The notes below the pieces were generated by a model that was given only the letters and a program-made list of their open reading frames with translations, ran no database searches and was not told the origin of the DNA. 64,000 bases of DNA, taken from contig QHWT01000090.1 of NCBI GenBank assembly GCA_003222675.1, forward strand, positions 1-64,000, written 5' to 3'. This document shows positions 3,684-48,734 of the stretch, piece by piece. A program made the translations under genes and the position numbers. This stretch comes from Acidobacteriota bacterium. GTDB lineage: Bacteria; Acidobacteriota; Vicinamibacteria; Vicinamibacterales; 2-12-FULL-66-21. Position 1 is the first letter of the stretch. Each line of letters begins with the position of its first letter.

Positions 3684-5441
3684 TTGCCCGTGCCCCCGCG
3701 TTCGATAGCGACCTCCATTTTCGACGAGCTCCGTGCGATCCAGCGTGCCCACGGCTACCTTCCCGAAGGGGAGTTGCGAACGATCGGGGATCGCCTCGAC
3801 GTGCCGCTCTACCGGCTGCAGGCGGTCGCGAGCTTCTTTCCACACTTCTTCCTGAAGCCGCCGGCGCGCGCTGAAGTGCGTGTGTGCGGCGACATGTCGT
3901 GCCATCGTTATGGAGGCAACGAGCTCCGCGAAACGCTGGCGGCGCGCTTTCAGGGGCAGGACGCCCACATCACGCACGTCTCGTGTCTCGGCCGATGCGA
4001 TCTCGCGCCGGCGATCGCGGTGAACGATCACATCTTCGAACGCACGAGCGAAGCGGAGGCGTCCGCGCTCATCGAAGCCGCGCTCGCCGGCGCATCGCCG
4101 GAACAGCTCGCGACACGCAAGCATCCGCCGCAGCGGACGCCGGTAATGTGCGACCCGTATGTCGCAGGTGATCGGACCTCGGACCTCGAACCTCGGACCT
4201 CGGACCTCGAACCTCTGACCTCGTCTCAGTACGGCGTGCTGCGCACGTACGTGCAGTCGAAGGACTGGCCTGGCCTGATCGCCACGTTGAAAGCGAGCGG
4301 CCTGCGCGGCCTCGGCGGTGCCGGCTTTCCGACGGGTATGAAGTGGGAGCTCGTGCGGAACCAGCCGGGCGACGTGAAATACATCGTCTGCAATGCCGAC
4401 GAGAGCGAGCCGGGCACGATCAAGGACCGGCACATCATGACGAACGCGCCGCATCTGCTCGTCGAGGGGATGATCCTCGGCGGGCTCGTCGCCGGCGCGC
4501 GGCATGGCGTCATCTACATCCGTCACGAGTACACCGATCAGGAACACATCCTGCAGCACGAGATCGATCGCTGCTACCGCGAGGGAATTCTCGGCACCGG
4601 CGTGATGGGATCGGATCTGTCATTTGATCTCGAAGTGTTCGTCAGCCCCGGCCTCTACATCTGCGGCGAAGAGAGCGCGCTGCTGGAAGCGATGGAAGGG
4701 AAACGCGCCGAACCGCGCAACAAGCCCCCTTTTCCCGGTCAGCACGGCGGCGGACTGTGGGGGAAGCCCACGGTCATCAACAACGTCGAGACGTTCTTCT
4801 TCGTGCCGGTGATCCTCGCGCGCGGTCTCGACTGGTTCAAGACCGCCGGGCGCAACGGGTCGGCCGGCGTGAAGTTCGTCGGCGTCAGCGGCGACGTGAC
4901 GCGCCCCGGCGTCTTCGAAGTGCCGATGGGGATTCCGTATCGTGAGCTGATCGAGCAGCTGGCAGGGGGCGTCGCGCCCGGGCGCACGTTCAAATCGTTC
5001 GCACCGTCGGGTCCGGCGGGCGGATTTCTTCCGGCACGGATGGCGGACCTGCCCCTCGACTGGAACGCGATGACGCAGGCGGGCGCCACGGTCGGCTCGG
5101 GCGCCATCGTCGTGTGCGACGACCGCGCGTGCATGCTGGACATGGCGCTGAACGCCGTGCGCTTCTTCCGCAACGAGTCGTGTGGCAAGTGCGTGCCGTG
5201 CCGCGTCGGGTCCGCGAAGCTCACGGATCTGCTGACCGGGTGGACGCGGGGCCGCCGCGGCCCGAACGACATCGCGCTCTACGAGGATCTGTCGCACGCG
5301 ATGCGGCAGACGTCGATCTGCGGTCTGGGACAGGTCGTGCCGGTGCCGATCGCCTCCGTGCTCAAACATTTTCCCGACGAAGTCGACGCGCACGCGAAAG
5401 GCGTCTGCCCGGCAGGCGTGTGCTTCAGGGGCCGCGCGTGA
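3684..5441 (+). CDS. NuoE-NuoF fusion, NADH-oxidising flavoprotein subunit
   Basis: The N-terminal 150 residues are NuoE-like (thioredoxin-fold 2Fe-2S; cysteines in RVCGDMSCH and SCLGRCD). After a linker comes a complete NuoF-like domain with GLGGAGFPTGMKW and NADESEPG (FMN/NADH site), LYICGEESALLE, and the 4Fe-4S ligands ESCGKCVPC plus SICGLGQ. It should oxidise NADH via FMN, as in complex I, HoxF or NAD-dependent formate dehydrogenase diaphorases. Start is TTG 3684 or GTG 3690. The linker contains a 7-bp tandem repeat translated as two copies of RTSDLEP. The stop overlaps the next start (GTGA), so the two are translationally coupled. No hydrogenase or formate dehydrogenase lies nearby. Confidence 0.92.
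   Translation: MPVPPRSIATSIFDELRAIQRAHGYLPEGELRTIGDRLDVPLYRLQAVASFFPHFFLKPPARAEVRVCGDMSCHRYGGNELRETLAARFQGQDAHITHVSCLGRCDLAPAIAVNDHIFERTSEAEASALIEAALAGASPEQLATRKHPPQRTPVMCDPYVAGDRTSDLEPRTSDLEPLTSSQYGVLRTYVQSKDWPGLIATLKASGLRGLGGAGFPTGMKWELVRNQPGDVKYIVCNADESEPGTIKDRHIMTNAPHLLVEGMILGGLVAGARHGVIYIRHEYTDQEHILQHEIDRCYREGILGTGVMGSDLSFDLEVFVSPGLYICGEESALLEAMEGKRAEPRNKPPFPGQHGGGLWGKPTVINNVETFFFVPVILARGLDWFKTAGRNGSAGVKFVGVSGDVTRPGVFEVPMGIPYRELIEQLAGGVAPGRTFKSFAPSGPAGGFLPARMADLPLDWNAMTQAGATVGSGAIVVCDDRACMLDMALNAVRFFRNESCGKCVPCRVGSAKLTDLLTGWTRGRRGPNDIALYEDLSHAMRQTSICGLGQVVPVPIASVLKHFPDEVDAHAKGVCPAGVCFRGRA
4172..4223. repeat. In-frame 7-bp tandem repeat TCGRACC inside the nuoEF fusion
   Basis: About seven units of TCGGACC/TCGAACC, the same units as at 22261-22292, 34461-34501 and 50972-51105. 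Here they are translated as part of the inter-domain linker. Confidence 0.9.
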
Positions 5442-7555
5442 GCGATCAGATCACCCTCACGATCGACGGCCGGGACGTGACGGTCCCGCGCGGGACGACG
5501 ATCTTCGATGCGGCACGGATGAATGGCATCGCGATCCCGACGCTGTGCCACCAGCAGAACCAGACGCCCGTGGGAGTCTGCCGCGTCTGCGTCGTCGACG
5601 TCGGAGCGCGCGTCTACGCGGCGGCGTGTATCCGCGAGTGCGATCCGGGCATGAAAGTGAAGACCGGCACCGAGCCGGTCGTGCGGGCCCGCAACACGCT
5701 CGTCGAGTTGCTCATGGCGGACCACCCGTCGCCGTGCGCGCGCCAGCAGGCGAGCGGCGACTGCGAGCTCGAGGCCATGGCGAAGGCGTCGGGCGTCTCG
5801 GAGGCGCGCTACGCTCGCCGGCTGTCTCCGCGCGGCCGCGACGATTCGTCGCTGAGCATCGCCGTCGATCACGAAGCGTGCATTCTCTGCGATCGGTGCA
5901 TCCGCGGCTGCGACGAGGTCAAGAAGAACCACGTCATCGGCCGCAGCGGACGCGGGTACTCCGCGCACATCGGCTTCGATCTCGATTTGCCGATGGGGAG
6001 CTCGACGTGCGTGTCGTGCGGTGAGTGCATGGTGTCGTGCCCGACGGGCGCGCTGACGAACAAGCGCGTCATCGACGCGCAATTGCCGGGAGAGACACTC
6101 GACCCGGAGTGGATCCTGCAGCTGCCTGTGTTCAAAGGCGTCAGCGGCACATTTCTCGAGTTGAACAAGAGCTCCCTGGTCAAACGGCGGATTGCAGCCG
6201 GCGAGGTGATCTGTCGCGAGGGGGAGTTCGGATCGACGGCGTTTTACATTCTCGAAGGATCGGTCGACGTCTTCATCGGCACGCCCATCGCGCACGTGAA
6301 GCAGGAAGATGCGTCCGCTGGATGGCTCAGCCGGATTCGCAGCCGCCTCGCCGATCGGCAGGAGCACACGCGAACGGAGGAGAGCGGCCGTCGTTTCATT
6401 CCCATCGACGCGCCCGTGGATCTGCCGTACGACAAACCTCTCGCCGAGCTCGGCGCGGGCGAGTTGTTCGGCGAGATGACGTGCATGAGCTTCCACCCTC
6501 GATCCGCAACCGTTCGGGCGAAGACCGAGGTCGTGGTGCTCGAGATGCTCCGGAACGTGCTGGACATTCTCCAGAAGAACAAGACGTTCCGCGCGGAGCT
6601 CGATCGCAAGTACCGCCAGCGCGCGCTCGAAACACATCTCCGCAGCGTGCCGGTGTTCTCCTCGATGCCGGCGGATTTCGTTGATTACCTGCGCGATCGC
6701 GTCGAGCTGAGCCGGTACTCGCCGGGTGAGGTGATCGTGCGGCAGGGAGAGGCCGCCGACGCGTTCTATCTCGTGCGGCTCGGCTTCGTGAAAGTGAGCG
6801 AGCGCCATCCCGGCGGCGAGGTGGTGCTGACGTATCTGGGCCGCGGTTCGTACTTCGGGGAGATGGGCCTGTTAGGCGGCGGTGTGCGTACGGCCACGTG
6901 TACCGCGCTCGATCACGTCGACGTCGTGAAGATTGCCGGCGAAGACTTCCAGTTGATGGTGTCGCGGTTTCCGGATATCCGCGCGGGCCTCGAGAAGGTC
7001 GCGCGCGAGCGCGCGGAACAGAACCGGCAGCGCCTCGCGTCCACCGAGCACGTCCCAATCGATGCCTTCCTGAACCAGGGACTCATGGAAGCGCAGAGTC
7101 TCCTGCTGCTGGACCTGGAGAAGTGCACGCGTTGCGATCAATGCGTGCGCGCGTGTGCGGACGCGCACGACGGCGTGACGCGTCTGGTTCGTGAAGGGCT
7201 GCGATTCGACAAGTACCTCGTCGCGTCGATCCGGCGCCGCAACTCGATGGAGATCATCATCGAGGACTGGTGCATCGGTTGCGGCCTCTGCGTTCGGAAT
7301 TGTCCGTACGGCAACCTCAACCTGCACCCGTTCGAGATCAAGGTCCCCGATCCGGAGAAGCCGAACCGGATGATCGCGACGACCAGGAAGAAGGCGACCG
7401 GTTGCGATCTGTGCATGGAACATGCGGAGCCGAGCTGCGTGTATGCGTGCCCGCACGACGCCGCGCACCGCGTCGAGCCGCTCGCGTTCTTCGGGACGAT
7501 GTCCGCGGTGAAAGATGGGAAGCGGACGGGTTCTACCGAGGCAACGAGCAAATGA
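5438..7555 (+). CDS. NuoG-like ferredoxin, two cyclic-nucleotide-binding domains and a polyferredoxin fused
   Basis: A 705-residue fusion. Residues 1-80 form a 2Fe-2S ferredoxin (C37, C48, C51 and about C65). Next is a degenerate NuoG-type His/Cys motif (HPSPCARQQASGDCEL) in which one expected Cys is replaced. Then come two 4Fe-4S motifs (CILCDRCIRGC, CVSCGECMVSC). Two CRP-like cyclic-nucleotide-binding domains follow, at about 225-375 (FGEMTCMSF) and 405-530 (FGEMGLLGG). The C-terminus has HybA/DmsB-like clusters (CTRCDQCVRAC, CIGCGLCVRNC, CDLCMEHAEPSCVYAC). It has no signal peptide. GTG 5438 is chosen because it overlaps the nuoEF stop and the ferredoxin starts immediately; an upstream extension would only be nuoF antiphase. 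It likely takes electrons from the NuoEF protein and hands them to the membrane protein at 7620, with possible gating by a cyclic nucleotide. Confidence 0.9.
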   Translation: MSDQITLTIDGRDVTVPRGTTIFDAARMNGIAIPTLCHQQNQTPVGVCRVCVVDVGARVYAAACIRECDPGMKVKTGTEPVVRARNTLVELLMADHPSPCARQQASGDCELEAMAKASGVSEARYARRLSPRGRDDSSLSIAVDHEACILCDRCIRGCDEVKKNHVIGRSGRGYSAHIGFDLDLPMGSSTCVSCGECMVSCPTGALTNKRVIDAQLPGETLDPEWILQLPVFKGVSGTFLELNKSSLVKRRIAAGEVICREGEFGSTAFYILEGSVDVFIGTPIAHVKQEDASAGWLSRIRSRLADRQEHTRTEESGRRFIPIDAPVDLPYDKPLAELGAGELFGEMTCMSFHPRSATVRAKTEVVVLEMLRNVLDILQKNKTFRAELDRKYRQRALETHLRSVPVFSSMPADFVDYLRDRVELSRYSPGEVIVRQGEAADAFYLVRLGFVKVSERHPGGEVVLTYLGRGSYFGEMGLLGGGVRTATCTALDHVDVVKIAGEDFQLMVSRFPDIRAGLEKVARERAEQNRQRLASTEHVPIDAFLNQGLMEAQSLLLLDLEKCTRCDQCVRACADAHDGVTRLVREGLRFDKYLVASIRRRNSMEIIIEDWCIGCGLCVRNCPYGNLNLHPFEIKVPDPEKPNRMIATTRKKATGCDLCMEHAEPSCVYACPHDAAHRVEPLAFFGTMSAVKDGKRTGSTEATSK

Positions 7556-7560
7556 GGGCC

Positions 7561-7612
7561 GAGCGCGGAGGCGCGAGGTGCGAGGTGCGAGGCGCGATGC
7601 GCGAGGCCTTGG
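7561..7612. repeat. Degenerate GCGAGGT tandem repeat
   Basis: Units of GCGAGGT/GCGAGGC/GCGATGC between the Fe-S protein and the membrane cytochrome gene; a variant of the 7-bp family seen at 51070-51105. Confidence 0.7.
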
Positions 7613-7619
7613 ATCAGCA

Positions 7620-8498
7620 ATGATCATCGACCGCAGCCATCGGTCGTGGGCCGTCGCGAGCGCCGCGATTCTCATTGTCGCGCTCGCCGCGTACGTGCCG
7701 TACGCAGTTGGCTCGCCGCGAGTGGGTGGTGGCACGACACTGGGTCTCGCATACGGGATCGTCGGCTTCGGTTTCATGGCGTTCGTCACCCTGCTCAGCC
7801 TGCGGAAGAAATTTCCGATCTGGCGCATCGGGCGGACGCAGACCTGGATGCGCGGGCATCTCTGGCTCGGGGCGTTGAGCCTGCCGCTGATCCTGCTGCA
7901 CGCCGGATTTTTGTTCGGGCACGGTCTCGCGTCCGTTCTCATGTGGCTGTTCGCCGTTGTGTATGCGAGCGGCATCTGCGGCGCATGGCTGCAGCACACC
8001 ATGCCCCGCCGGATCCTGCGCGACGTGCCGATGGAAACGATTTACGAGCAGATCGGCCACGTCCGCGCGCAGCTCGTCGATGAGGCGGACAGGCTTGTTG
8101 CCGACGCGTCCGGGCGCCTCGAGGTAGCGGTTCCGCCTGCGGCATCCGGCGCGACGGTGCTGGCGACGGTGATGCGCGTCGACGCGGACGTGACGGCGCC
8201 GCTGCGCGAGTTCTACGTGCACGAGATGCGACCGTTCGTGCAGGCGCCGTCGCGCAGCCATCCGCTCGCGAATGAGACCAGCGCCGCCGGGCGCTTCGAG
8301 AAGCTGCGTCCGCTGCTGCCGGTATCGCTGCACGCCGCCGTCGCGGATCTCGAAAGCATCTGCGAGGAAGAACGGCAGTTGATGCGGCAGGCGCGGATGC
8401 ACGGCGTCCTGCACGCGTGGCTGCTCGTGCACGTGCCGTTGTCATTTGCCCTGATGGCGCTGGCGATCGCGCATATCATCGGCGCGCTGAGATACTGA
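7620..8498 (+). CDS. Integral membrane b-type-cytochrome-like protein
   Basis: About 292 residues. Hydrophobic segments lie at about 9-31, 37-57, 78-98, 101-121 and 265-290. Histidines fall in or next to the helices (RGHLWLG, LLHAGF, HAWLLVH, AIAHI), which suits two haem-b groups bridging the membrane. A soluble stretch sits between helices four and five. No strict family was recognised; ferric-reductase-like or cytochrome b561-like folds are the closest impressions. It lies between a cytoplasmic Fe-S protein and a periplasmic decaheme, so a transmembrane electron-transfer role is inferred. Its stop overlaps the next ATG by one base (TGATG). Confidence 0.75.
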   Translation: MIIDRSHRSWAVASAAILIVALAAYVPYAVGSPRVGGGTTLGLAYGIVGFGFMAFVTLLSLRKKFPIWRIGRTQTWMRGHLWLGALSLPLILLHAGFLFGHGLASVLMWLFAVVYASGICGAWLQHTMPRRILRDVPMETIYEQIGHVRAQLVDEADRLVADASGRLEVAVPPAASGATVLATVMRVDADVTAPLREFYVHEMRPFVQAPSRSHPLANETSAAGRFEKLRPLLPVSLHAAVADLESICEEERQLMRQARMHGVLHAWLLVHVPLSFALMALAIAHIIGALRY

Positions 8499-9826
8499 TG
8501 CGCATCCGTACGGCGAAGATGCTCGCGGAGCGGATCGATCTCAATTACTTCAAGCGCGCGCCTGCGCTGCGCCGCTGGAGGTACATTCTTTCAATTGCGA
8601 TTCCTGCGATCGCGGTGCTGTGGATCGCGGGGTATGCCGCAGCGGGCATCCGCAGGCCCTACAGCGCCGGACCTGTTTCGAGCGCGCACGCCTTTGCCGA
8701 GATGAAATGCGAGGTGTGCCACACCTCCGCGAACGCGCCTGCCGGCTTCCGCGCGCACGTCTCCGAGAAGGCGTGCCTCACGTGCCATGATGCGCCGGCG
8801 CACGTTGTGAATCAGACGCCGTCGCCCGCGTGCGTGAACTGTCACGTCGAGCACAGCGGACGCGTCCAGTTGGCGAAGGTGGGCGACGGTCTGTGCGTGG
8901 ATTGTCATGGCGATCTGAAAACCATGCAAGGCGCGCCCGCGATATCGACCACGGTGGGTCGATTTGGCTCCCGACACCCGGAATTCGCGGCGGCACGCGA
9001 GGGCGCGAAGGATCCCGGGACGATCAGGTTCAACCACGCGCTGCACATGACAAAGGATGGCGTCCGCAGTTTGAGAGGCATTGAAATCCTGCAGTGCACG
9101 GACTGCCACAAAGCCGCGCGCATCCTTCCGCCTCAAGGCGGCAGCCACGAGCTACGCGTTGGCCTGATGAGCGCCGCCAACTACCAACAGAACTGCGCAC
9201 GGTGCCACGGCCTCGAGTTCGATTACCGCATCGAGCAGCCGGCGCCGCACGACAAGCCTGAGGCCGTGCGTGCTGCCGTGCGTACGGCGCTCCAGAACTA
9301 CATTGCCGCGCATCCGAGCGAGATCATCAAGCCTGACGATCCGCGGCGGCTGCCGCTGAATTTCCCACCCGCAGCAGAGCCGCCGGCGCGCAACGCGACC
9401 GAATGGGTTGCCAGGCGCGCGGATAATGGCGAACGCCTCCTGTGGTCGCGCTGCGATGTCTGTCACGCGAGGACCGGAACGGTGACAGTCACAGTTCCGC
9501 AAGCTCAGCCTGTCGCGGATCCGCGACGAAGTGTGACTGTCACCGTTTCTGTCCCCGCGTTTGCGGCATCTCATATCGCGACGCGCTGGATGGTCCGCGC
9601 GGCGTTCGACCATACGCCGCACCTGATGCTGCAGTGCGTGGACTGTCATGCCGCGGAGAACAGCCAGCTGACCTCCGACATCCTCATGCCGAAGCAGGCG
9701 ACATGTGCCACGTGCCACGCGCCGTCCAGGGGCGCCGAGGCGCGCTGCTTCGAATGTCATCAGTACCACGATTGGCGCAAGTCACACGCGGTCAGCCCCG
9801 CGTTCAAGCTGACGGATTTCAGGTAA
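8498..9826 (+). CDS. Membrane-anchored decaheme c-type cytochrome
   Basis: About 442 residues with one N-terminal membrane anchor (about residues 28-48, no clear cleavage site) and ten CXXCH sites: CEVCH, CLTCH, CVNCH, CVDCH, CTDCH, CARCH, CDVCH, CVDCH, CATCH, CFECH. A periplasmic electron carrier tethered to the inner membrane is the natural reading. It is translationally coupled to the upstream membrane protein. Between haems seven and eight the protein contains a Thr/Val-rich insert (TVTVTVPQAQ...SVTVTVSVP) encoded by a palindromic repeat. The Fe-S/b-type/decaheme order supports electron export from the cytoplasm. Confidence 0.9.
   Translation: MRIRTAKMLAERIDLNYFKRAPALRRWRYILSIAIPAIAVLWIAGYAAAGIRRPYSAGPVSSAHAFAEMKCEVCHTSANAPAGFRAHVSEKACLTCHDAPAHVVNQTPSPACVNCHVEHSGRVQLAKVGDGLCVDCHGDLKTMQGAPAISTTVGRFGSRHPEFAAAREGAKDPGTIRFNHALHMTKDGVRSLRGIEILQCTDCHKAARILPPQGGSHELRVGLMSAANYQQNCARCHGLEFDYRIEQPAPHDKPEAVRAAVRTALQNYIAAHPSEIIKPDDPRRLPLNFPPAAEPPARNATEWVARRADNGERLLWSRCDVCHARTGTVTVTVPQAQPVADPRRSVTVTVSVPAFAASHIATRWMVRAAFDHTPHLMLQCVDCHAAENSQLTSDILMPKQATCATCHAPSRGAEARCFECHQYHDWRKSHAVSPAFKLTDFR
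9476..9556. repeat. In-frame copy of the 58-bp palindromic repeat inside the decaheme gene
   Basis: Arms GGTGACAGTCACAGTTCCG and CGAAGTGTGACTGTCACC frame a variant loop. The arms correspond to the four intergenic copies at 16258-16398 and 20161-20280, whose arms are GGGGACACTCACACTTCG and its inverse. Confidence 0.8.
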
Positions 9827-9894
9827 GGCGGAATGCCGAATGCGCGGCCGCACGCGAGGCGGAGCGAAGACATAAAAGAAACGGAGAAAGAGTC

Positions 9895-10968
9895 ATGAAA
9901 GCGATCGTCGTCAGGCCGGGGGAACGCGACAGCATCCACATGCGCGACATGCCGGATCCAAAGATGAAGCCGGACCAGGTCGCCGTGAAGATGCTGCGCG
10001 TCGGGTTGTGCGGGACCGACGCCGAGATCAATCACGGCCTCTACGGCAAGCCGCCTGACGGTGACGAGTTCCTGATCCTCGGCCACGAGAACCTCGGGGT
10101 GGTCGAGGACGTCGGGAAGAAGGTCAAGGGCTGGAAAGCGGGCGACCTCGTGGTCTCCACCGTGCGCCGGCCGTGCGGCGTGTGTCCGCAGTGCAAGTCG
10201 GGCGAGAACGACATGTGCAGCAGCGGCCAGTACACCGAGCGGGGCATCATGCGTCGCCACGGCTTCATGGCGCAGTACTACGTCGAGTCGCCGCAGTTCC
10301 TGAACAAGATCCCGAAGCCGGTGCGCGACTTCGCCGTCCTGCTCGAGCCGATGTCGGTCGTCGAGAAAGGAATCGACCACGCGTTCCTGCTCCAGCGGCG
10401 CACGACCTGGAAGCCGAAGTTCGGCATGGTGCTTGGCGGCGGACCCGTCGGCCTGCTCGCGGCCGCGGTGCTCCGTGCGCGCGGGCTTCGCACGCTCGTC
10501 ATCGGACGGGAAGAGGCCAACGACCTGCGCGCCCAGATCTCGAAGCAGCTCGGCGCGCAATATCTCTGCGTCGCGAACAAGGCGCTTCCTGACGTGCCGA
10601 AGGAAACGGGTTATCCCGACCTCGTAATCGAAGCGACGGGCAGCGCGAAAGTCGTGTTCGATGCAATGGAGATCCTGGGCCCGAACGGCGTCCTCTGTCT
10701 GCTCAGCGTGACGGGCGGCCAGACACAGAATCAGGAGCCGATCGATCTCATCAACCAGCGCCTCGTACTCGGTAACCAGGTCGTCTTCGGCAGCGTGAAC
10801 GCGAATCCACGCCACTTCGCGATGGGCGTCAAGGACTTCGTAACGATCGACAAGAAGTGGCCGGGCACGCTGAGCCGCCTGCTGACGAATCGGATTCCGT
10901 GGCAGGACCACAAGTCATGGTTCAACGAGCGCGGGAGCGGGATTAAATCGACACTCGAAATATCCTAG
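9895..10968 (+). CDS. Zinc-dependent MDR dehydrogenase, glucose 1-dehydrogenase type
   Basis: A 357-residue medium-chain dehydrogenase. It has the catalytic-zinc motifs LCGTDAE and LGHENLG, the four-Cys structural-zinc lobe (CGVCPQCKSGENDMC), a Rossmann motif (LGGGPVGLLA) and the extended C-terminus typical of archaeal-type glucose dehydrogenases. It would oxidise an aldose with NAD(P)+. The ATG at 9895 has GGAGAAAG upstream. It follows the redox operon by 68 bp in the same direction and might supply NADH to it, but that link rests only on position. Confidence 0.85.
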   Translation: MKAIVVRPGERDSIHMRDMPDPKMKPDQVAVKMLRVGLCGTDAEINHGLYGKPPDGDEFLILGHENLGVVEDVGKKVKGWKAGDLVVSTVRRPCGVCPQCKSGENDMCSSGQYTERGIMRRHGFMAQYYVESPQFLNKIPKPVRDFAVLLEPMSVVEKGIDHAFLLQRRTTWKPKFGMVLGGGPVGLLAAAVLRARGLRTLVIGREEANDLRAQISKQLGAQYLCVANKALPDVPKETGYPDLVIEATGSAKVVFDAMEILGPNGVLCLLSVTGGQTQNQEPIDLINQRLVLGNQVVFGSVNANPRHFAMGVKDFVTIDKKWPGTLSRLLTNRIPWQDHKSWFNERGSGIKSTLEIS

Positions 10969-11077
10969 GGTTCACGGTTCACGGTTCACGGTTCACGGTT
11001 CACCGGTTCACGGTTCACGGTTCACGGTTCACCGGTTCACCGGTTCACGGTTCACGGTTCACCGGTTCACGGTTCCG
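10969..11077. repeat. Tandem 7-bp repeat TTCACGG
   Basis: About 14 consecutive units of TTCACGG with occasional 8-bp TTCACCGG variants, between the dehydrogenase stop and the decayed permease. Confidence 0.95.
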
Positions 11078-11080
11078 GAT

Positions 11081-12173
11081 TCACCCTCTCAGCGCAACGA
11101 CAGGATCCACACGCAGCGCGCGTCTCGCGGGCAGCCAACTCGCGAGGAGCGCGACGCCGAGCAGCGTGCCCGCAGACATTATCCACGCCAGCGGGTCCCA
11201 GGGGCTGATCGCGTACAACACCGTAGTCAGTGCACCGACGTGCGCAGCTCGTCGCTGCTGTACCTCGCGCCTGACAGCGGCAGTTCCGCGGTAGCACACG
11301 ATCGGCATCGAATCCTGGTGAGACCCGCTGCAGCCGCGCGAAGCTCCTGACCAGCAGCGCCGCGCCGATCGTCAGCACAATCGTCAGCGCGATCTCCGCG
11401 ACGACCAGCCCGGCGCGTGCGCGCCGCTGGCACACGCCGCCGCTCATGCCGGACCGCCTTGCTTCATTGAGCGCTTCGCGCACGTCGACCCGGACGGACT
11501 GGAACGCGGGCAGGAGCCCGAAGAGCACACCCGCCGCGAGCGCAACGCCAAACGTGAAGATGACGACCCGGGTGTCGACCACCACGGCATCGACCCGCGC
11601 GGAAGCGTCGATCTTCTGAAACAAGCGGAGTCGGACGGGAAGGACGCCGATGATCGTGGCCGCACGCCCGTCGAGCAGCACGCGCTCACCGAGCACGGCG
11701 CGCCCGCCGAACCGCGCCTGCCACACGCCGTGACTCAGGATCACGACCGCCTCGCCACCCGGTTTGTCTTCGTCGGCGGAAAACGTGCGGCCAATCTCCG
11801 GAGCGACGCCCAGCATCGGCAGCACGTTCGCGCTGAGCATCTTGGGAGTGACGCGCTGCGGCTCGTCGCCGCCACTCATGTTCAGTCGTGTTGCGGAACG
11901 CGCCGCACGCCTGGAGCGACCGCGCGTCGGCGCACACATCGCGATAGTTTTCCGCCCGACAGCGAGAGCAGCGGGAACTGCGGCGGCGTGTGCTCGTTGA
12001 TCATGACGACGCGATCGGCGTCGTGAAAGGGAAGCGGCCGCAACATGACGGGTCGACGACGCTGAAGATCGCGGACGTGGCGCCGACGCCAAGCGCGATG
12101 TCAGAACGGCGATGCTGGTGAAGCCAGGCTGCTTGAGCAGCGCGCGAAACGCCAGACGGAATTCGCGAATCAC
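11081..12173 (-). pseudogene. MacB/FtsX-like ABC transporter permease, deleted and frameshifted
   Basis: Starts with the hallmark FRLAFRALLKQPGFT N-terminus of acidobacterial duplicated permeases, then shifts frame within about 30 residues. Recognisable pieces follow: a MacB periplasmic segment (EIGRTFSADEDKPGG, VILSHGVWQARFGG), an FtsX helix segment, and in another frame the C-terminal LPARRALRVDPVVALRG. Intact relatives are about 800 residues (compare 40205-42676), so half or more is missing. It is non-functional. Confidence 0.85.
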
Positions 12174-12494
12174 CTCGCCAGCGTAGTCGGCGTATGCGAG
12201 AGCGTCAACGCGCGTAGGGCGGTGTTCCAGCGTCGTACCTTTGTGTGCCGTGATGGAACAAACGAATGCAATGTCCTACGGCTCATTGATTTACGCGCAA
12301 AAACTCCCTCGAATGCAGTCAATTGTGTTCCATAACTAGCCATCCTTACGCAAGCGTGCGGCCGCGAAGGCCCTAAAGGCCGTTCAGATAATCCCTACCA
12401 AGTCAGCTATTTGGGCAGTCCTGCCGCCTCCATGAGCAGCTGGACTGTTCCTTGCCAAGACCCTGATGCCGGTTAAACGCGGACACTACTGATT
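12174..12494. other. 321-bp intergenic leader region
   Basis: No protein frame is credible. A GGCC-CTAAA-GGCC hairpin near 12368-12381 lies upstream of the peptidase gene. It may be a regulatory leader, but no known riboswitch could be matched. Confidence 0.3.
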
Positions 12495-14222: not shown

Positions 14223-14223
14223 C

Positions 14224-16251
14224 ATGAATTCGACAGCCGGGGCGGCGCGCTTGTCGACGCAGGGCCGCGCGTTTATCGCGGCGGTGTCGATCTGCGGCCT
14301 CGCCGTGGCAATGTGGTGTGCGTGGACGATCGTTCACACGTCGCTTCCACCCGCCTGGCTGGTCTTTGCAGGGCTCACGCTCGCGAGCGCGAGCCTCACA
14401 CTCAAGATTCCGTCGATCAACTCGACGCTGGCGGTGTCGGAGATTTTCGCGCTCGCCGCAATCCTCCTGTTCGGTCCGGCGCCTGGCGCGTTCTCGTTCG
14501 CCTGTCTGGGGATCGTCCTGTCGCTGCGCGGCCGGGTGACGCGCGATCGCATCGTGCTGATCGTGTTCAACTTCGGAAATCTCGCGATTTCGGGGTGGGT
14601 ATGCGGTACGATCTTCTTCGCGCTGTCGGGCGTGGCGCCCTTGTCGCAGGGCAGCGGCCACTACGGCGAGCTGGTTCCCGCGCTGGCAGCGACGACGGCG
14701 AGCTACTTCCTGCTCAACAGCGGCCTGACCGCATGCGCGGTTGCGGCTGAATCGGGACAGGCGTTCATCAGCCTGTGGCGGACGCATTTTCTGCCGCTCG
14801 TGCCGAGTTACGTGGCGGGGGCGTCCGTTTCGCTGATTCTCGTCGTCGTGATGCGGGAGGGGCAGTTCATGGCCTTCGCGCTGGTCCTTCCACTGTTGTT
14901 CATTTCGTACCTGACCGTGCAGTCGTCGTTCGGCCGCGTGGAAGATTCGAAAGTGCACGTCACCCAGCTCAATCGTTTGCTCTTGTCGACGGTTGAGACG
15001 CTCGCGACCGCGATCGACGCGAAGGACGAAGTCACCCACGATCACGTGCGCCGCGTCCAGCAGGGCACGCTCGCGCTGGCGCGCCTGCTGGGCGTTTCCG
15101 ACACGGAGATGCTCAAGGCGATTGAGGCAGCGGCCCTCCTTCACGACACCGGCAAGATCGCGGTGCCGGAGCATATCCTGAACAAGCCTGGCAAGCTGAC
15201 GCCCGCGGAGTTCGACAAGATGAAGCGTCACGCGCCGATTGGCGCGGAGATCCTCTCGTCGATCGAATTTCCATATCCCGTCGTCCCTATCGTGCGGCAT
15301 CATCACGAGAACTGGGACGGTACCGGGTATCCCGATGGCTTGCGCGGCGCCGAGATCCCGCTCGGCGCGCGGATTCTGTCCGTCGTCGACTGCTTCGACG
15401 CGCTGACGTCGGATCGTCCCTATCGCCGACGGATGACCGACGAACAGGCGCTCACGATCCTCTGCGATCGTCGCGGCACCATGTACGACCCACTCGTCGT
15501 CGATACGTTCACCGAGAATTACAGGCAGATCATGCCGGCCGCGAACAGTGCTCCGCATCCCGCGGCGCGGGCCATTGGCGATGCGCGCGCTCAGGATCGC
15601 ATCGAGCGCGAGCAGGCGCGCGAGGCCCTGGCACCGTCGTCGATCGCCGTCAACGACACGCTGCTGGCCGTTACGAGTCTGTCGCGCGCGATGAGCGGGG
15701 ATGCCACGATCATCGATGTCGGCTCGCTGATGTGGATGATCGTACGGCAGGTGCTGCCGTGTGAGTCGATGGCGATCTTCCTCGTGGACGAGCAGCACGA
15801 CGAGGTTGCCGTGCGATTTGCCGCGGGCGCGCACGCACACGTGCTGCGCAACGTCACGAGACCGACTGGAACCGGTATCGCGGGGTGGGTTGCGGTGAAC
15901 GCGAAGCCAGCCGTCAACGCCGACGCCGGGCTCGATCTGGGCCTGCGGGCGGTGGAACTCTCGCCGCCGCTCCGCTCGTGCCTGGCCGTGCCGCTGATGG
16001 ACAGCGAAGCGCTCGTTGCCGTGCTCGCGCTCTACGGCGACAAACCGGGGGCGTTCTCGGAAGACGACGTGCGGCTCGTCGAACTGCTCGCGCCGCGTCT
16101 CGCGTCCGCTCTCATCGTGCCCGCGATCGATGAGGAGGAGGACGGCTTCGTTGCCGCCGCCGCATCCATTGCGGGCGTCAGCGGCGCCTCCAAGCAAAAA
16201 TCAGGTCTGAAGCTGGTCACCCGCTCCCACCGGAGCCCTGAGCCCGCCTGA
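14224..16251 (+). CDS. Membrane HD-GYP phosphodiesterase with C-terminal GAF domain
   Basis: 675 residues. The first 215 hold about six to seven hydrophobic helices (a MASE-like sensor). A complete HD-GYP domain follows, with HDTGK near residue 307 and GTGYP near residue 366 followed by DGLRG; Asp and His metal ligands are in place, so cyclic-di-GMP hydrolysis is expected. A GAF domain occupies about 510-650. It lies directly behind the secreted peptidase gene. Confidence 0.9.
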   Translation: MNSTAGAARLSTQGRAFIAAVSICGLAVAMWCAWTIVHTSLPPAWLVFAGLTLASASLTLKIPSINSTLAVSEIFALAAILLFGPAPGAFSFACLGIVLSLRGRVTRDRIVLIVFNFGNLAISGWVCGTIFFALSGVAPLSQGSGHYGELVPALAATTASYFLLNSGLTACAVAAESGQAFISLWRTHFLPLVPSYVAGASVSLILVVVMREGQFMAFALVLPLLFISYLTVQSSFGRVEDSKVHVTQLNRLLLSTVETLATAIDAKDEVTHDHVRRVQQGTLALARLLGVSDTEMLKAIEAAALLHDTGKIAVPEHILNKPGKLTPAEFDKMKRHAPIGAEILSSIEFPYPVVPIVRHHHENWDGTGYPDGLRGAEIPLGARILSVVDCFDALTSDRPYRRRMTDEQALTILCDRRGTMYDPLVVDTFTENYRQIMPAANSAPHPAARAIGDARAQDRIEREQAREALAPSSIAVNDTLLAVTSLSRAMSGDATIIDVGSLMWMIVRQVLPCESMAIFLVDEQHDEVAVRFAAGAHAHVLRNVTRPTGTGIAGWVAVNAKPAVNADAGLDLGLRAVELSPPLRSCLAVPLMDSEALVAVLALYGDKPGAFSEDDVRLVELLAPRLASALIVPAIDEEEDGFVAAAASIAGVSGASKQKSGLKLVTRSHRSPEPA

Positions 16252-16257
16252 AGCCAG

Positions 16258-16398
16258 AACGGGGACACTCACACTTCGTCCCATTTCTGGGATTAACTGT
16301 GACTGTCCCCGTTCTGACTCTGAAGCGAGCGCACGCCTGAAAGGGGGACACTCACACTTCATCCCAATTCTGAGACGAACTGTGAGTGTCCCCGTTTC
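16258..16398. repeat. Two copies of a 58-bp palindromic repeat
   Basis: Copies at 16258-16315 and 16340-16398. Each has GGGGACACTCACACTTCRTCCC on the left and AACTGTGASTGTCCCC on the right with a short loop. They sit between convergent genes and could act as a bidirectional terminator, although no T-run is present. Two more copies lie at 20161-20280. Confidence 0.9.
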
Positions 16399-19300
16399 TC
16401 ATCGCGGCGGATCGTTTGTGACGGTGAACACCTTGCCGTCGCGCAGGTACAGTCTCTCCATGTCCGCCTTGTTGAACGGCCGCGCGCCGCGACGGCCGAA
16501 AACGGCGAGCTGATTGCCGCTTTCATCAACCGCGCGGTCGCGATCGATGCCTTCCGAGATCATCAGCGCGTCGTGCATCGGGTAGTGCGCGATCAGCGTG
16601 GGCGTGGGGTGCGGGCTGAAGCCGAGATAGTTCGGGTTGTCTGAAGGCGAGAAGAGCTGCACCACCTGCAGGCCGTTATGCCCGTCCGCGATGTAGGCAA
16701 ACTGACTGGCGTTCGTCATGCCGATCTTCACGTCGTTCGTGTCGTTGATTGCCCCTCCCGCATTGAACGTCTGTGCCAGCGTCGGCTGCTCGGGCCGTTC
16801 GATGTCGACGATGCCGATGCCATCGGGGCCGGCGGCGACATAGGCGTACGTGCGCGCCACGTAGAGATTGCGCGCGTCCTTGAACGGCACGCGCGCGCCG
16901 CTGACAAGGCGCGGCTTGTCCAGCGCGGTCACGTCGAGCACCTTCAGCCCGTCCCGATCCACCACGAAGCCGTAGCGAAACTGGATTTGCACGCCGCGCG
17001 GCTCGACGAGATCGGGGGCGCCGATCTGCGCCGTCACTTTCGGATGGAATGGATCCTCGAGTGAGACGACAACGAGCGCCTTGCCGGTCAGGATGTACGC
17101 ATACGTGCCGGCGATCGTAATGCGGCGCCCGCCCGTGAGGACGCCGTCGGGATTGAACGTGACGGCGCGTTCGAGGAAGTTGTTCGATGGGTTGCCATCG
17201 AGGAGCGTGCCGACGCCGATGATGTTCCGGCTCTTGGGATCCCTGTTGCCAACGACGATCAGCCCCTCTTCCCGGTCGATGACGTAGAGCAATCCGTACA
17301 ACACGTGGATCTTCTGTTCCTCGTTCTCCGGACGCTGCGAGCGCAGCGGGTCCACGCCGAGCGTGGTCGGCGTCGCGATCGCAGCTGCAAATTTCGTCTT
17401 GACATAGAGCCGCTGCCCGAGCGGTGACACCGGCGCAGTGACGATCGGTTCGCTGAAATCCTTGTTGTCGATGTTCGCGATGTCGTAGATGCGGAAGCCG
17501 CCTTTGCCCAGCGCCGCGTAGAGGTATTCTCCACGCTGCTGCACGTCCAGCACGTTTTCACCCGGATGGTGATGCGCGTGTGGGAGCTCGAGTTTGCGCT
17601 TCTCGTGCTTCTCGTATTCCTCGGGATACGCGAGCTTGTGCAGGTGGCTCCCGATGATCGCGGGCGGCTCGTCGCGTTCGGCGACGGCGACTCCCTCGAA
17701 GCCCTCTCTGCCGTCAGCCACCCAGATGTTGTGGCCCATGAAGTTCATGAAGTTGGTGCCCTGCAGCGTCACGTTCGCGATCCAGGCGTTGTTGCTGCCG
17801 TCGGCCGCGACGTGGCAGTCGGTGCACGTCTTCGTTTCCTTCGCGCGCACGGTGTGAGGCACGAAGGTGCTGAATGCCTGGCCGCTGAATCCTTCGGCGG
17901 AGACCGTCTGCTGCATGTAGTAAAGCCAGTCGCGCGACTGATTCTGGGAGCTGACGAGAATCGCGCATGCGGAACGCACCGGCGCGACACGGTTGTTCGT
18001 AACCGTGCCGTCGCGGCCGAGGAAGAATGAATCATCGCGCAGCACCTGGAAGTTGTATGCCGTCCAGTTGCGCGTCGCGAGCCCCTCGTTGTGCAGCATC
18101 GGCATCTTGCGGTTCGCCACCATCGAGAGATGACAGCCGAAGCACGTCGGCGTCCACGACGTGTGGCACGCGTAGCACGTCATCGAGCTGTTCGCGTGCG
18201 CGAGCGTGTCCGCTGCCGCGACCAATCCCCACGTCGTCCCGTCACGCTGGATTGTCTTCGCGCGCCGCGACTTGTCCGAGTAGTGCGATGCGCCCGGCGT
18301 GATCGTATCGACCGTCTGCACGACTTCCCATTTCAGATTCGGATCCAGCATGGACCGCTGGAAGAGCGTGTCCCCCTCCCAGTAGAAGCGGCGCTCGCGC
18401 CACGGCGTTCGCAGCGCGGCGAGCGCGGTACCACCCGCAGGCGCCGCGGGTCCGCTCGTGATCAGCGTCGCACGCCGTTCGATGGATCCGTGGCAATCCA
18501 CGCAGTCGATTTCAACGGCATTGCGCGTCTCGCCGTACAGCCTGCCGTTCCCGTGGTTGTCCTGATTGAAATGGCAGTCGATGCACTGCATGCCTTTCTC
18601 GAGGTGGATGTCTTTCAGATGCACCGCCTTGCCGAAGCGATCCGGATCGTCGTGGGGGACGACCCTGTCGTCGCCGTCGAGCAGGTTGCCGCGGCGATCG
18701 CGCTTGTAGACCGCGCGGAATACCCAGCCGTGGCCGTGGAAGTCGGCAAACTGCGTGTGCTGCAGCTGCCTGTTGAATTGCGGCGTGCCGATCTGGCCAA
18801 GGAATTTCTCGTCGCCCCACTTGCCGCGAAGCGCCGACTGCTCCGGGTTGCGCGAACGAATCTCGAGCCGGTCCTTATCCGAGAGATCCTTCTGCGCTGC
18901 GGGATACATGAATTCACCGTCGGTCTCGTTCTCCCACCAGGTGTAGCCGTAGTACGTCGTGACCATGTTCGTTCCCGGATGCACGTGGCACGTCATGCAC
19001 TGGCTCGACGGAATGGAGCGTGTGAACGTGTGCCTGATCGGATGTCCGGGCTGCGTGCGCTCGGGATCGATCGTGGGATCGAGCGTCGCGGTGCGGCCGT
19101 CGTTGCCGAACTGCGCGTACTGACCGGAGTGATCCGGCGATCGATCGTTGGCATAAACGACATGACAGGCGGTGCAGCCGCTATTGCGATAGTCGCCAGG
19201 TTGATCGTTGGTGCCGGGAAACGACAGCAGCGGATCGAGCAGCCGTGTCTTCTGCAGTCCCAGGAACACGGGATCGGTCCGCAGCAGCGTCCCAAAGCCG

Positions 19301-20154
19301 CGATCGCTCAGCTTCGCATCGGGACGGCCCGGATCCTCGTTGCGCGTGGGGTTACCGATCTCGCCGCGCTTGCTGCCGCCACGCTCGAACACGCGCAGCA
19401 CGTTGCCCGGCTGCGTAATCTCCCAGCGTGGCAGCGGCTCGAGCCAGGGCAGCCATCCTTTTGTCCGGGTTTCCTCCGGCGTGGGTGCCGGAAATGCCTG
19501 CAGCCGCTGCGGCGTGCCGTCGGGCGCATAGCTCTCGCCGTAGCGCGCGTTCTTGTACGGCGCGGCGCCATTGTTGTAGAGCGCCGCCTGCCACAACATC
19601 GCGCCCGTCGTCATCATGCTGGTGCGCACGTTGCGCACTTCCGCCGCGTGGCACGAGCCGCACGTTTTGTCGGCGACTCGAAGATCGCCGGGATTGACGA
19701 ATTGCACGTACGCAGGCGACTCTTCCAGCCATTCGGTGTAGGGACGGATCGCGTTCGCCGAGCTCTTGAAGAGCTCCTTGTTTCGTGGGAGCACGTGCGC
19801 CTTGCGCCTGGCCTCGTCGTACTCTTTCGAGTCCGCGGCGAGCCCGCTTGCGATCGTGACGGCAGGATCGCCGCCATGACAATCCGCGCATCCGATCGTC
19901 ACCGTGCCGCCGGGATGCATCGACGCTTCGTCGGTCTTGGTGTGGCAGGTGATGCAGCCGGCGCTCTGCCTGGCAGCGTCTTCGGATCCGTGTTGGATCG
20001 CCGGGGGTGAACCCAACACGCTCGACCTGAAGGTCGGGCCTACTGGTGGTGGGATTGCAGGGGATCGCCCCGCCGCGTTTGCACCCCATACCAACGTCAC
20101 CGTCCATCCAATTGCGGCCATCGTGACTGCGCGCATGGCATTGGTCATATGCAT
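16399..20154 (-). CDS. Decaheme cytochrome fused to an LVIVD-type beta-propeller
   Basis: 1,251 residues with an N-terminal signal peptide ([17 protein letters not shown]...ANA). Ten CXXCH sites fall between residue 67 (CITCH) and about 795: CITCH, CADCH, CGSCH, CTACH, CMTCH, CIDCH, CVDCH, CYACH, CFGCH, CTDCH. Residues from about 880 to 1,200 are LVIVD-like propeller blades ([35 protein letters not shown]). The residues just after the signal peptide (about 33-48) come from an inserted palindromic repeat. It is encoded just downstream of a predicted outer-membrane barrel, the arrangement expected of a porin-cytochrome conduit. Its substrate is unknown; soluble electron acceptors or a surface terminal reductase are both possible. 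Confidence 0.85.
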
Positions 20155-20160
20155 GTGCCC

Positions 20161-20280
20161 GAAAGGGGGACACTCACAGTTCGTCCCGCTTTCGGAAATA
20201 AGTGTGAGTGTCCCCGTTCTGAACTGTGACTGTCACAGTTCGTCCCGGTTGTGGGATTAAGTGTGAGTGTCCCCGTTCTG
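20161..20280. repeat. Two more copies of the 58-bp palindromic repeat
   Basis: Copies at 20161-20221 and 20222-20280, abutting, between the outer-membrane protein gene and the decaheme-propeller gene. If transcribed together, the RNA would fold into two strong hairpins between the genes, which could attenuate the downstream cytochrome. Confidence 0.9.
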
Positions 20281-20281
20281 T

Positions 20282-22375
20282 TCAGAATTGCAGTCTCATG
20301 TTCACAAATACCGAGAACAGGTGATTCCGTTCGTAGATGTCCTTGAGCCCTTGTCCGAGCCTCATGCCCGCGACGCCGCCGATGATGACGATGTTGTCGC
20401 TCAGCGGCGGCCGATACGATGCGCCGGCTCCGTACTCCACGCCGATGTTCAGGCGCACCTTCTCTTGGAACAGCAATGTCTCCAGGACTTCTGTTTTCAT
20501 GAAGCGCAGGTAGCTCGTCGAGACGAAGCCGCGCAGCTTCGGGGTCAGCTCGACGTCCGCGCCACCATTCACGAGAAAGATCCCGGGATTGACGAAGCTC
20601 GCCTGCCCCTCGTCCTTGTTCGTGCGCAGCGAGGGAAGGAGGCTCAGCGGCGACACGAGCCCGGTGCCGGTCTGCGCGAGACGGAGGCCCTGGCGGTTCC
20701 ACAGACTGAATGTGCCTCCCGCGAACGTCGGGATGTCCAGGATTGCGTCGAACGCGCGGCCGTGACCGTCGTTCGGATCGTCATCACCCGATGCAAAGAA
20801 TGTCGTTCCCTTGAATCGAATCCAGTCTTTATCGAGTGAGAGTTCCAGCGCGGCCATCTGCGCATTGATGTCGACTGGCGCCGCTTCGATGGCATTGGCC
20901 TCTTCGTGCCCGAGCGCCTGGTAGAACGCGTGACTCACATTCCACCGGCCGATGTGACCGCTGCCCGCCCAGCCGACGTAGTACGCGCGCACCGTGTTGT
21001 TGCCGATGAGCCCGATGGGCGCGGGACGCACGAGGAACCCGTTCGTGTCGTAGTGCAGCTCGCCCTGGTCCCGATTGGCGTGGAAGCTGAACTCGGTTGT
21101 GTAGCCCGGAGTCAGGAAGTCCTGAATGTAGAGATTCGCGATGTACACCTGCTGGTTGCGCCGATGCAGCTCGTTGAAGCCGCTGTTGGTGTCCTTTTCG
21201 AGCAGGTCGAAGTACGCGAGGTTGTACTCGATGCGGCTCGATTTCAACGTGCCGAACAGGCGGACGCCCGGGGATTCCAGCACCGAGATGAAGCCTCGAA
21301 AGTCGGAGCTGAACTCCTGGATGCCGGCGCGAACCGAGATGAAGTCGTAGTTCGAACTGATATCGAACAGCTTCTTCTCGACGAACGCTTCCTGCAATCC
21401 GAGATGGGTGTTCAGGCGATTCGACCCGCGCCGCACATCGGCGTTCGTCTGGAGCTCGGCGAGATCGATGAAGTTGACGCTGAAGGCCGGCGCGACGCGC
21501 ACGCGCCAGTCGACCGGACGGAACGCCGTATCGCCGCGAAACAGATCGAACGACGTGCGGAACGCGGTGACGGGCAGGTACTGGCCGCCGCGGCCGAAGA
21601 AGCGCTGGCTGCCCTGGCGCTTTGTGCTGACGCCGCTTGGCGTCGGCAGGTTGCGCCCTTCGAGCAGCGAATCGCTCACGCCCGTGAACACGAAGAACGT
21701 CCGTTTGTCGAGGACCGGGTAGTCCCCCTTCAATCGGTTCTGATTGTAAGGATCCCACCAGCGTCCGCTGACGTACGGATAATCTCCCTCGACGTGATAA
21801 CGATCCCACTCCGGGAGCGGCAGGTTCCAGCGTTCGGGAACCGGCACGAACACCTTCTCGCCCGGCGGGAGCGGCGTGGCCTCCGACGGCGGCTCTCCAC
21901 GACGTTCCGGAAGCCGTCCATACGGCGTCGGCGGGCCGGGCTCGATCGGTCGCGACGGTGGCGCCGCTTCTCCCGTGCGCGCGATCTTCAGATCGACGCT
22001 CGCCAGCTCCGATGCGGCGAGGCGCAAGCCTCCCTGCGTCAGAGGCTGATAACCGTCGCGCGTGACGGTGAACGAGTACTCGCCGCCGGGAAGGTCGAGA
22101 AAGCGGAACACGCCGTCGGCCGTCGTGAGGGCTCGAGCGACTTCGCGCGCGCCGCTCCTCAGGACGACATTCGCGCCGGGGACGGGGCGCCCATCCTGGT
22201 CCGTGACCTGTCCCTGAATCGCGGAACGACGCTCGCGCTGGTTGGGGATCTGGTGCGGCTCGAGGTCCGAGGTCCGAGGTCCGAGGTCCGAACGCCGAAA
22301 CCCGAATTCCGGACGCACGACGCCGCCGGTCGGCGCGTGTCCCAGCGCAAACATCAGCAAGACCGCCGCAATCAC
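20282..22375 (-). CDS. Outer-membrane beta-barrel protein with carboxypeptidase-regulatory-like N-terminus
   Basis: 697 residues: a short signal-like N-terminus, an insert translated from the 7-bp repeat (SDLGPRTSDLEP), a regulatory-like Ig-fold domain (IQGQVTDQDGRPVPGANVVL, about 53-130), a Pro-rich linker, then about 500 residues of alternating amphipathic strands ending in Phe (FVNMRLQF), the classic outer-membrane barrel signature. It lacks a TonB plug. Together with the downstream secreted decaheme it resembles the porin partner of porin-cytochrome complexes. That role is inferred from order and topology. Confidence 0.75.
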   Translation of the reverse strand: MIAAVLLMFALGHAPTGGVVRPEFGFRRSDLGPRTSDLEPHQIPNQRERRSAIQGQVTDQDGRPVPGANVVLRSGAREVARALTTADGVFRFLDLPGGEYSFTVTRDGYQPLTQGGLRLAASELASVDLKIARTGEAAPPSRPIEPGPPTPYGRLPERRGEPPSEATPLPPGEKVFVPVPERWNLPLPEWDRYHVEGDYPYVSGRWWDPYNQNRLKGDYPVLDKRTFFVFTGVSDSLLEGRNLPTPSGVSTKRQGSQRFFGRGGQYLPVTAFRTSFDLFRGDTAFRPVDWRVRVAPAFSVNFIDLAELQTNADVRRGSNRLNTHLGLQEAFVEKKLFDISSNYDFISVRAGIQEFSSDFRGFISVLESPGVRLFGTLKSSRIEYNLAYFDLLEKDTNSGFNELHRRNQQVYIANLYIQDFLTPGYTTEFSFHANRDQGELHYDTNGFLVRPAPIGLIGNNTVRAYYVGWAGSGHIGRWNVSHAFYQALGHEEANAIEAAPVDINAQMAALELSLDKDWIRFKGTTFFASGDDDPNDGHGRAFDAILDIPTFAGGTFSLWNRQGLRLAQTGTGLVSPLSLLPSLRTNKDEGQASFVNPGIFLVNGGADVELTPKLRGFVSTSYLRFMKTEVLETLLFQEKVRLNIGVEYGAGASYRPPLSDNIVIIGGVAGMRLGQGLKDIYERNHLFSVFVNMRLQF
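22261..22292. repeat. In-frame 7-bp tandem repeat in the outer-membrane protein gene
   Basis: Four to five units of GAGGTCC/GAGGTCC on the plus strand (TCGGACC in the gene direction), translated as SDLGPRTSDLEP after the signal peptide. Confidence 0.9.

Positions 22376-46413: not shown

Positions 46414-48734
<2,321 letters not shown>

Follow-up and report, generated by a model that had tools for sequence, protein, structure and literature searches.

The subject of this analysis is a candidate electron-export system encoded in the first half of a 64,000-nucleotide stretch of DNA from an Acidobacteriota bacterium (hereafter the window; contig QHWT01000090.1, assembly GCA_003222675.1, positions 1 to 64,000 of the forward strand). 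Four genes, termed B, C, D and E, form an operon on the forward strand (3684-9826), and a pair of genes convergent to it, M and O, is located on the reverse strand (16399-22375; Table 1). All parts named in a preliminary description of this DNA were recovered by open reading frame (ORF) calling, Pfam and NCBIfam, with O as a predicted barrel. The four genes had been described as one overlapping operon; B and C as well as D and E indeed overlap by a few bases, but C and D are separated by a gap of 64 bases, so that the operon is better called compact. The divergent, secreted pentaheme cytochrome at 1983-3563 is protein A, whose four CXXCH motifs and one CX4CH motif account for its five haems.

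Table 1. Position and assignment of the genes discussed in the text.
Feature	Position	Strand	Assignment	Basis or remark
A	1983..3563	-	secreted c554-like pentaheme cytochrome	divergent from operon; Pfam Cytochrome_C554 2.2e-09
B	3684..5441	+	NuoE-NuoF fusion	Pfam, PDB relatives, ligand table
C	5438..7555	+	HoxU/NuoG-like Fe-S N-terminal part, two clear cyclic-nucleotide-binding domains, C-terminal ferredoxin
D	7620..8498	+	five-transmembrane protein with two H-x13-H pairs, proposed di-haem b wire
E	8498..9826	+	membrane-anchored periplasmic decaheme, ten bis-His haems proposed
Insert	9895..16251		glucose-dehydrogenase-like gene, truncated permease, S8 protease, HD-GAF protein
M	16399..20154	-	secreted decaheme with C-terminal LVIVD propeller	Pfam, alignment
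O	20282..22375	-	TTR-like domain and proposed outer-membrane barrel	Pfam, C-terminal Phe
HbpS-like	27094..28866	-	secreted two-domain protein, likely partner	Pfam

Conservation of the gene cluster

A search with C against one genome per species (84,980 species) yielded 115 relatives, of which 80 were kept as loci, all of them picked by likeness to the window's C. Most of the records carry the label Acidobacteria; the others are labelled Rokubacteria, Methylomirabilota or Planctomycetes, apart from a few of doubtful label. The complete set of B, C, D and E is found in 71 of the 80 loci (tblastn): in 67 they lie on one strand in the window's order, which the preliminary description had proposed to look for in other genomes, and in four Planctomycete-type loci (L084-L087) the order is D-E-B-C. 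Clustering of these four genes is far beyond chance. A homologue of A was identified in the flanks of 64 of the 80 loci (tblastn).

M is present in the flank of 38 of the 80 loci (tblastn). Among 37 called E-M pairs besides that of the window, 23 converge at a distance of -16 to 79 bp, one is separated by 445 bp, seven by 2.5-5.3 kb, and six have M on the opposite side. Since E and M lie within 80 bp of each other in these 23 pairs, the 6.6-kb gap of the window is most simply explained as an insertion, and the genes between 9895 and 16251 are placed outside the system. In a genome of the same family, ORFs that begin with similar sequences are situated between C and M. The two blocks 6 kb apart of the preliminary description are thus real in the window, but elsewhere they usually form one convergent locus, which is split here by the insert. 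Within the insert, a 368-residue permease ORF (11067-12173, reverse strand) resembles at its start an 825-residue ORF of the same-family genome (L167:2980-5457) and is probably a truncated copy.

The link between the two blocks extends beyond immediate neighbourhood. M was found elsewhere in 35 of 40 genomes whose locus had no M (40 of 42 such genomes; L008 and L034 were excluded, their contigs being shorter than 6 kb). In a phylum sample of 297 Acidobacteriota genomes, including that of the window, M (E <= 1e-30) was detected in 33, D-like sequences (E <= 1e-10, which takes partial matches from 44 bits) in 49, and both in 32. A full-length D (over 280 bits) is present in six of these genomes, the window's included, and five of the six also carry M, the sixth being a genome of 75% completeness. 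In a second sample of 149 genomes, from the phylum to which L086 (a record labelled Planctomycetaceae) belongs, full-length D was found in 12, M in 18 and both in 11, one of the M matches being weak and partial. Fisher's test for co-occurrence of D and M, which ignores kinship, gives p = 2e-29 and p = 3e-11 in the two samples, respectively. Blocks that never occur together, named beforehand as the outcome speaking against a joint route, are therefore not what the flanks, the further genomes or the two samples show.

Further neighbours recur around the cluster, with families named by a Pfam scan of one member each and single flanking genes annotated in part; ORF calling missed some genes that genome searches recovered, for example D in L088, L092 and L110. 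An HbpS-like family is found in the flanks of 33 of the 80 loci, as well as in 17 of 24 further stretches holding M and O, and the HbpS-like secreted protein is a likely partner of the system. A pyridine-nucleotide-disulphide oxidoreductase (Pyr_redox) is present in 12 loci, directly after C in L066 and L083-L087, and appears soluble-transhydrogenase-like by eye. Other recurrent families are a CHASE2-cyclase, an MGH1/GH63-like protein, a metallo-beta-lactamase fold and a few rarer ones, together with P450, aldo-keto reductase, K+ channel, methyltransferase, M50 protease and FUSC proteins recognized by eye only. Hydrogenase motifs are absent from 1030 ORFs (taken from the 80 loci and from the window up to 34 kb), and neither a complex I membrane arm nor a quinone module was found among the operon genes (Pfam) or the recurrent neighbour families. 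Only L054 among the 80 loci carries further ORFs with two or more CXXCH motifs. The preliminary description had regarded the cluster as a distinct NADH:cytochrome module accompanied by no hydrogenase, formate dehydrogenase or complex I membrane arm. This view gains support, as none of these recurs beside NuoEF and the homologues do not routinely sit beside another terminal enzyme.

Two observations concern other parts of the window. A glycoside-hydrolase-like coding region, recognized by eye only, extends over 644-2079 of the forward strand apparently in two frames (ORFs 644-2014 and 1435-2079), and the split appears to be a frameshift, either in the gene or in the assembly. At 46410-48734 (forward strand), a P-type ATPase carries N-terminal YHS and heavy-metal-binding domains.

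Cofactor sites of the individual proteins

Protein D has no Pfam or NCBIfam match. Its structure model (mean predicted local distance difference test score, pLDDT, 90.7) exhibits helices at residues 5-31, 40-62, 73-94 and 103-135 and a last long helix at 235-291. Four histidines, H80, H94, H271 and H285, are invariant in all 64 rows of close homologues and form two H-x13-H pairs, which fall in the predicted helices 73-94 and 235-291. Such spacing occurs in di-haem b cytochromes. Of 29 more distant D-like matches from other clusters, 27 likewise contain two of these pairs, spaced by 140-230 residues; the exceptions are L107, whose D seems to be broken up in a D-E reading frame, and an incomplete match at the L110 edge. 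D, which the preliminary description had called b-type, does look so from these pairs and is proposed to be a transmembrane di-haem b wire. As the loop between transmembrane helices (TM) 2 and 3 is basic, the N-terminus of D is suggested to be inside; the 120-residue segment between TM4 and TM5 would therefore be cytoplasmic, with H80 and H271 on the inner side of the membrane and H94 and H285 on the outer side. Membership of D in the NOX/ferric reductase family (PF01794) was considered and rejected, as there was no Pfam match and hhalign gave a probability of 0.5%. Consequently, D is suggested to work like a ferric-reductase or NOX wire, and membership in that family is not claimed. Foldseek returned nothing for D at E <= 0.001 in the PDB, and a structure comparison gave sensor four-helix bundles (Z up to 11.0), cytochrome b561 (Z 7.1) and the S. 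pneumoniae NADPH oxidase (Z 6.5), all within the range common for helical proteins.

Protein B comprises Complex1_51K, SLBB and NADH_4Fe-4S domains (Pfam), and its cysteines C500, C503, C506 and C546 are conserved in 63 of 63 rows; domains and cysteines together agree with the FMN domain and B1 cluster that define BfuB. Its ten best PDB relatives are nine proteins of the HydB/NfnB/HoxF type (1.8e-116 to 4.5e-106) and one formate dehydrogenase beta subunit, with NuoF of complex I ranking below them (9.5e-99). In the NiFe-Bfu enzyme, a [2Fe-2S] cluster termed B2 is held by C438, C476, H525, C531 and C536, of which C476 is often replaced by Thr; the His ligand is reported for virtually all bifurcating BfuB proteins and as absent from non-bifurcating homologues (PMC9304861). 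Alignment of B with 7t2r_B revealed the corresponding ligands C483, H570, C575 and C580 in 58 of 63 sequences, the remaining five being Planctomycete-labelled rows with none of the four. The C-terminal ferredoxin domain carrying clusters B3 and B4 is missing from B, which ends five residues past C580 and has no Fer4 match in Pfam. Since the chain stops after the B2 motif, B does not belong to the Bfu family as defined in PMC9304861, and this assignment was rejected. A B2 site is paired with a ferredoxin domain in bifurcating enzymes; B, with the ligands of a putative B2 site alone, separates the two and offers a natural test of the role of B2.

The N-terminal part of C matches NCBIfam HoxU (8.6e-57), and its cysteines for one 2Fe-2S and two 4Fe-4S clusters are kept in all 78 rows; the C-terminal ferredoxin part shows twelve cysteines conserved at 95% or more. 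Between these parts, the phosphate-binding motif of the first cyclic-nucleotide-binding (cNMP) domain, FGEM...PRSAT, is found in 77-78 of 78 rows per residue, and that of the second, FGE...R.AT, in 72 (F), 77 (E), 76 (R) and 71 (T) of 78. A cyclase-family gene, counted as a sequence cluster of which the one member scanned with Pfam has CHASE2 and cyclase domains, is located in the flanks of 24 of the 80 loci. As 40 of these genomes hold 62 CHASE2 matches in total (0-6 each), fewer than one chance neighbour per hundred loci would be expected, an estimate that ignores kinship. Taken together, C may act as a cNMP-controlled gate on the electron path. A few genes from the cluster, an aquaporin (MIP) domain is fused to a C-terminal cNMP-binding domain (25009-26190, forward strand), and this channel may be gated by the same signal.

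E carries a single N-terminal TM helix (residues 30-48) and ten CXXCH motifs in 67 of 70 homologues (nine in the other three), along with ten more histidines conserved at 99% or more. M comprises 1251 residues with ten CXXCH motifs and LVIVD repeats; its ten haem histidines and nine further histidines show no variation among 49 sequences drawn from several types of cluster. Both E and M look like bis-His electron carriers. The best named relative of M is the selenite/tellurite cytochrome ExtM (NF040943), an assignment that was rejected because M scores 88.4 bits against a curated cut-off of 800, and the M profile gave only PDB matches with E >= 0.066, best to haem nitrite reductases. O ends in a C-terminal Phe in 24 of 25 rows, itself included, and is predicted to form an outer-membrane barrel.

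Alternative inputs to D-like proteins

Beyond the 80 loci, 49 further stretches were picked by their matches to M or D-like sequences, and flavoprotein neighbours were called with phmmer above 40 bits. An NAD(P)H-type flavoprotein is present in 23 of the 28 D-like stretches, with NuoEF in one of them, and five stretches (L099, L105, L107, L125 and L133) have no flavoprotein neighbour. As a control, thioredoxin-reductase (TrxR)- and FNR-type queries had no match above 40 bits in the flanks of the 80 loci and the window. NuoEF together with the HoxU part was found in only two of the 49 stretches (L108 and L109). In L088-L092 and L094, though not in L093, the place of C is taken by a fusion of a thioredoxin-reductase-like domain with cNMP domains and a ferredoxin (identified with Pfam in L089 and L094 and with phmmer in the others), followed by a decaheme, an HbpS-like protein, O and M. 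L095-L097, L099 and L100 encode D and the cNMP-ferredoxin part as a single fusion protein; a Pyr_redox-type protein occurs in L110. D-like genes situated away from M are mostly accompanied by cytochromes with some 16 to 44 haems and by an FNR-like (L118) or ferredoxin-Pyr_redox (L127) protein. The variety of flavoproteins adjoining D-like genes argues that D draws on pyridine nucleotide, with NuoEF as one input among several; judged by gene neighbourhood, the input module of D is replaceable.

Several of these stretches contain further unusual arrangements. An NDH-2-like flavoprotein (Pyr_redox_2, NDH2_C) with a cNMP domain is encoded between A and M-O at L106:2360-3994, in the genome of L105. 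Stretches L117-L135 (e.g., L134:4875-9893) combine D-like proteins and NAD(P)H-type flavoproteins with cytochromes of at least 20 CXXCH motifs, up to 53 per ORF, and apparently represent a separate set of electron-export loci in Acidobacteriota. FHA domains are fused to multihaem cytochromes or a flavoprotein at L089:7659-9983, L096:15773-18943 and L119:12938-15175, which suggests phosphorylation control in versions without NuoEF.

Proposed electron path, alternatives and known systems

The cluster probably encodes an NADH-driven, cyclic-nucleotide-gated transmembrane electron exporter to the periplasm or outer membrane, which need not use quinone. In this model, NADH would be oxidised by B at the FMN, and electrons would pass from the Fe-S clusters of B to the HoxU-like part of C, then to its C-terminal ferredoxin and to the inner haem of D. 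The membrane would be crossed via two b haems, presumably held by H80/H271 and H94/H285. In the periplasm, the ten haems of E would receive the electrons from D, and E would pass them on, perhaps via A, to M-O at the outer membrane, where the HbpS-like protein is a likely further participant. Binding of cAMP or cGMP to the domains between the two Fe-S halves of C might open or close the path. Electrons that leave the cell without protons draw down the membrane potential, as is the case for NOX enzymes. Because electron export of this kind should carry that cost here as well, a gated valve and an overflow role would be fitting, and a regulated overflow or reductant-supply route appears most likely, rather than a main energy-conserving chain.

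A broader interpretation, which we hold tentatively and at slightly less than an even chance, is that D represents a new class of inner-membrane entry point, a small di-haem b protein, for which no sequence kinship to known ones was found, passing electrons directly from NAD(P)H to periplasmic multihaem cytochromes without quinone, with swappable flavoproteins, a cNMP switch and an NADH subunit bearing the B2 site. NuoEF/HoxU, TrxR-cNMP-ferredoxin, ferredoxin-TrxR and FNR-like proteins would then be plug-in flavoprotein modules.

Several findings weigh against the proposed exporter. D shows no detected kinship to known haem b families. The N5-like motif of C lacks its middle Cys in all 78 rows (Gln in 63, Glu in 7, His in 3, other residues in 5), which is either a weak spot of the proposed path or real variation. 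Neither of the two CHASE2 genes of the window's own genome is near the cluster, and the model of M is poor (mean pLDDT 42), giving neither a placement nor a contact with O. Three of the six full-length-D genomes of the phylum sample (L105, L107 and L110) have the cNMP-ferredoxin part of C, D and E, and NuoEF/HoxU was not found beside their D, which makes NADH input via NuoEF non-obligatory. Locus and co-occurrence counts take no account of kinship among genomes, and the locus and genome samples are not independent, as some contigs, judged by length, recur (L073 and L074 in G187 and G023). The route from NADH to the cell exterior envisaged in the preliminary description is thus borne out in part: the module, the b-type appearance of D and the co-occurrence of the blocks speak for it, but in half of those six genomes neither NuoEF nor the HoxU part was found beside D.

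A quinone might stand in the middle of the chain, with B-C-D acting as an NADH:menaquinone reductase or D-E as a quinol dehydrogenase fed by quinol in the manner of CymA- or CbcL-type proteins. The five TM helices and two haem sites of D indeed resemble several quinone-active b cytochromes, but the different NAD(P)H flavoproteins at most D-like stretches fit direct supply, and in the B-E loci both C and E adjoin D, as expected for an unbroken chain; we consider a quinone step unlikely. Still less probable is electron bifurcation, in which NADH would give one electron to the cytochromes and one, via B2, to ferredoxin. The widely kept B2 ligands of B would be in keeping with it, given the His that PMC9304861 reports for virtually all bifurcating BfuB proteins, but B is devoid of the B3/B4 ferredoxin domain and its Planctomycete-type versions have none of the four ligands.

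At the other end of the path, M may be the periplasmic or outer-membrane terminal reductase of a soluble oxidant such as an oxyanion, so that a solid acceptor would never be reached. Its mean column identity of 68% (24 sequences) is unusually high for a surface cytochrome, and its best named relative belongs to a selenite/tellurite operon. The ExtM score lies far below the cut-off, however, and the invariant histidines suffice for ten bis-His haems, leaving no obvious open site. This alternative, rather unlikely though the best placed of those weighed here, is compatible with the remainder of the exporter model. An inward chain, in which extracellular donors such as Fe(II) drive NAD+ reduction, would draw on the reversibility in principle of the carriers; as reducing NAD+ from such donors requires a large energy input and none of the parts seems equipped to tap the proton-motive force, it is highly improbable.

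If the exporter model holds, an NADH wire that may bypass quinone would discharge reducing power independently of the respiratory chain, at the expense of membrane potential. Such a wire would need a valve, and the cNMP domains of C look like one. The gene set is present in many metagenome-assembled genomes (MAGs) of Acidobacteria from soil and peat and in some other bacteria, and its occurrence in the cultured Granulicella aggregans M8UP14 (L075) makes the system testable. For 'Acidobacteriota' MAGs from wastewater plants, one study describes the substrates of most multihaem cytochromes as unknown (PMC8100337). In titles and abstract beginnings of the open literature (subscription papers and preprints lying outside this scope), the gene set was not found described. 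The parts are of known kinds; what appears to be new is their assembly, along with the proposed gate and a putative B2 site that has no ferredoxin domain beside it. The insert-split convergent locus, the proposed cNMP gate, the B2 ligands in B, the likely HbpS-like partner and the replaceable input extend the preliminary description.

Well-studied electron export starts at the quinol pool, and the known systems each resemble a part of the cluster. HoxEFU and HydBC (BfuBC) correspond to B-C in their NuoE, NuoF and HoxU/NuoG-N parts, and the B2 ligands are shared by B. In contrast, the window's cluster has no hydrogenase or other catalytic subunit, B lacks the C-terminal ferredoxin domain and the HoxU part of C runs on into cNMP and ferredoxin domains. 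NOX enzymes and ferric reductases combine a cytoplasmic NAD(P)H flavoprotein, two haem sites located in TM3 and in the final TM helix, and outward electron flow, the arrangement proposed here for the cluster. They differ in that no sequence kinship to D was found, the flavoprotein of the cluster is a separate protein, and its acceptor would be a multihaem cytochrome. In MtrCAB and the Geobacter Pcc systems, a gene for a barrel-like protein lies beside that of a decaheme and an inner-membrane cytochrome is added, as proposed for M-O and E. Such porin-cytochrome conduits are fed by a quinol dehydrogenase such as CymA, whereas the cluster would be fed by a pyridine-nucleotide module and M, with 1251 residues, has a propeller. 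The Geobacter selenite/tellurite cluster extHIJKLMNOPQS resembles M-O in its porin-like protein with multihaem cytochromes and in the weak match of M to ExtM, and its published gene list includes a Rieske protein and a cytochrome b and neither NuoEF nor a cNMP protein (PMC5877670).

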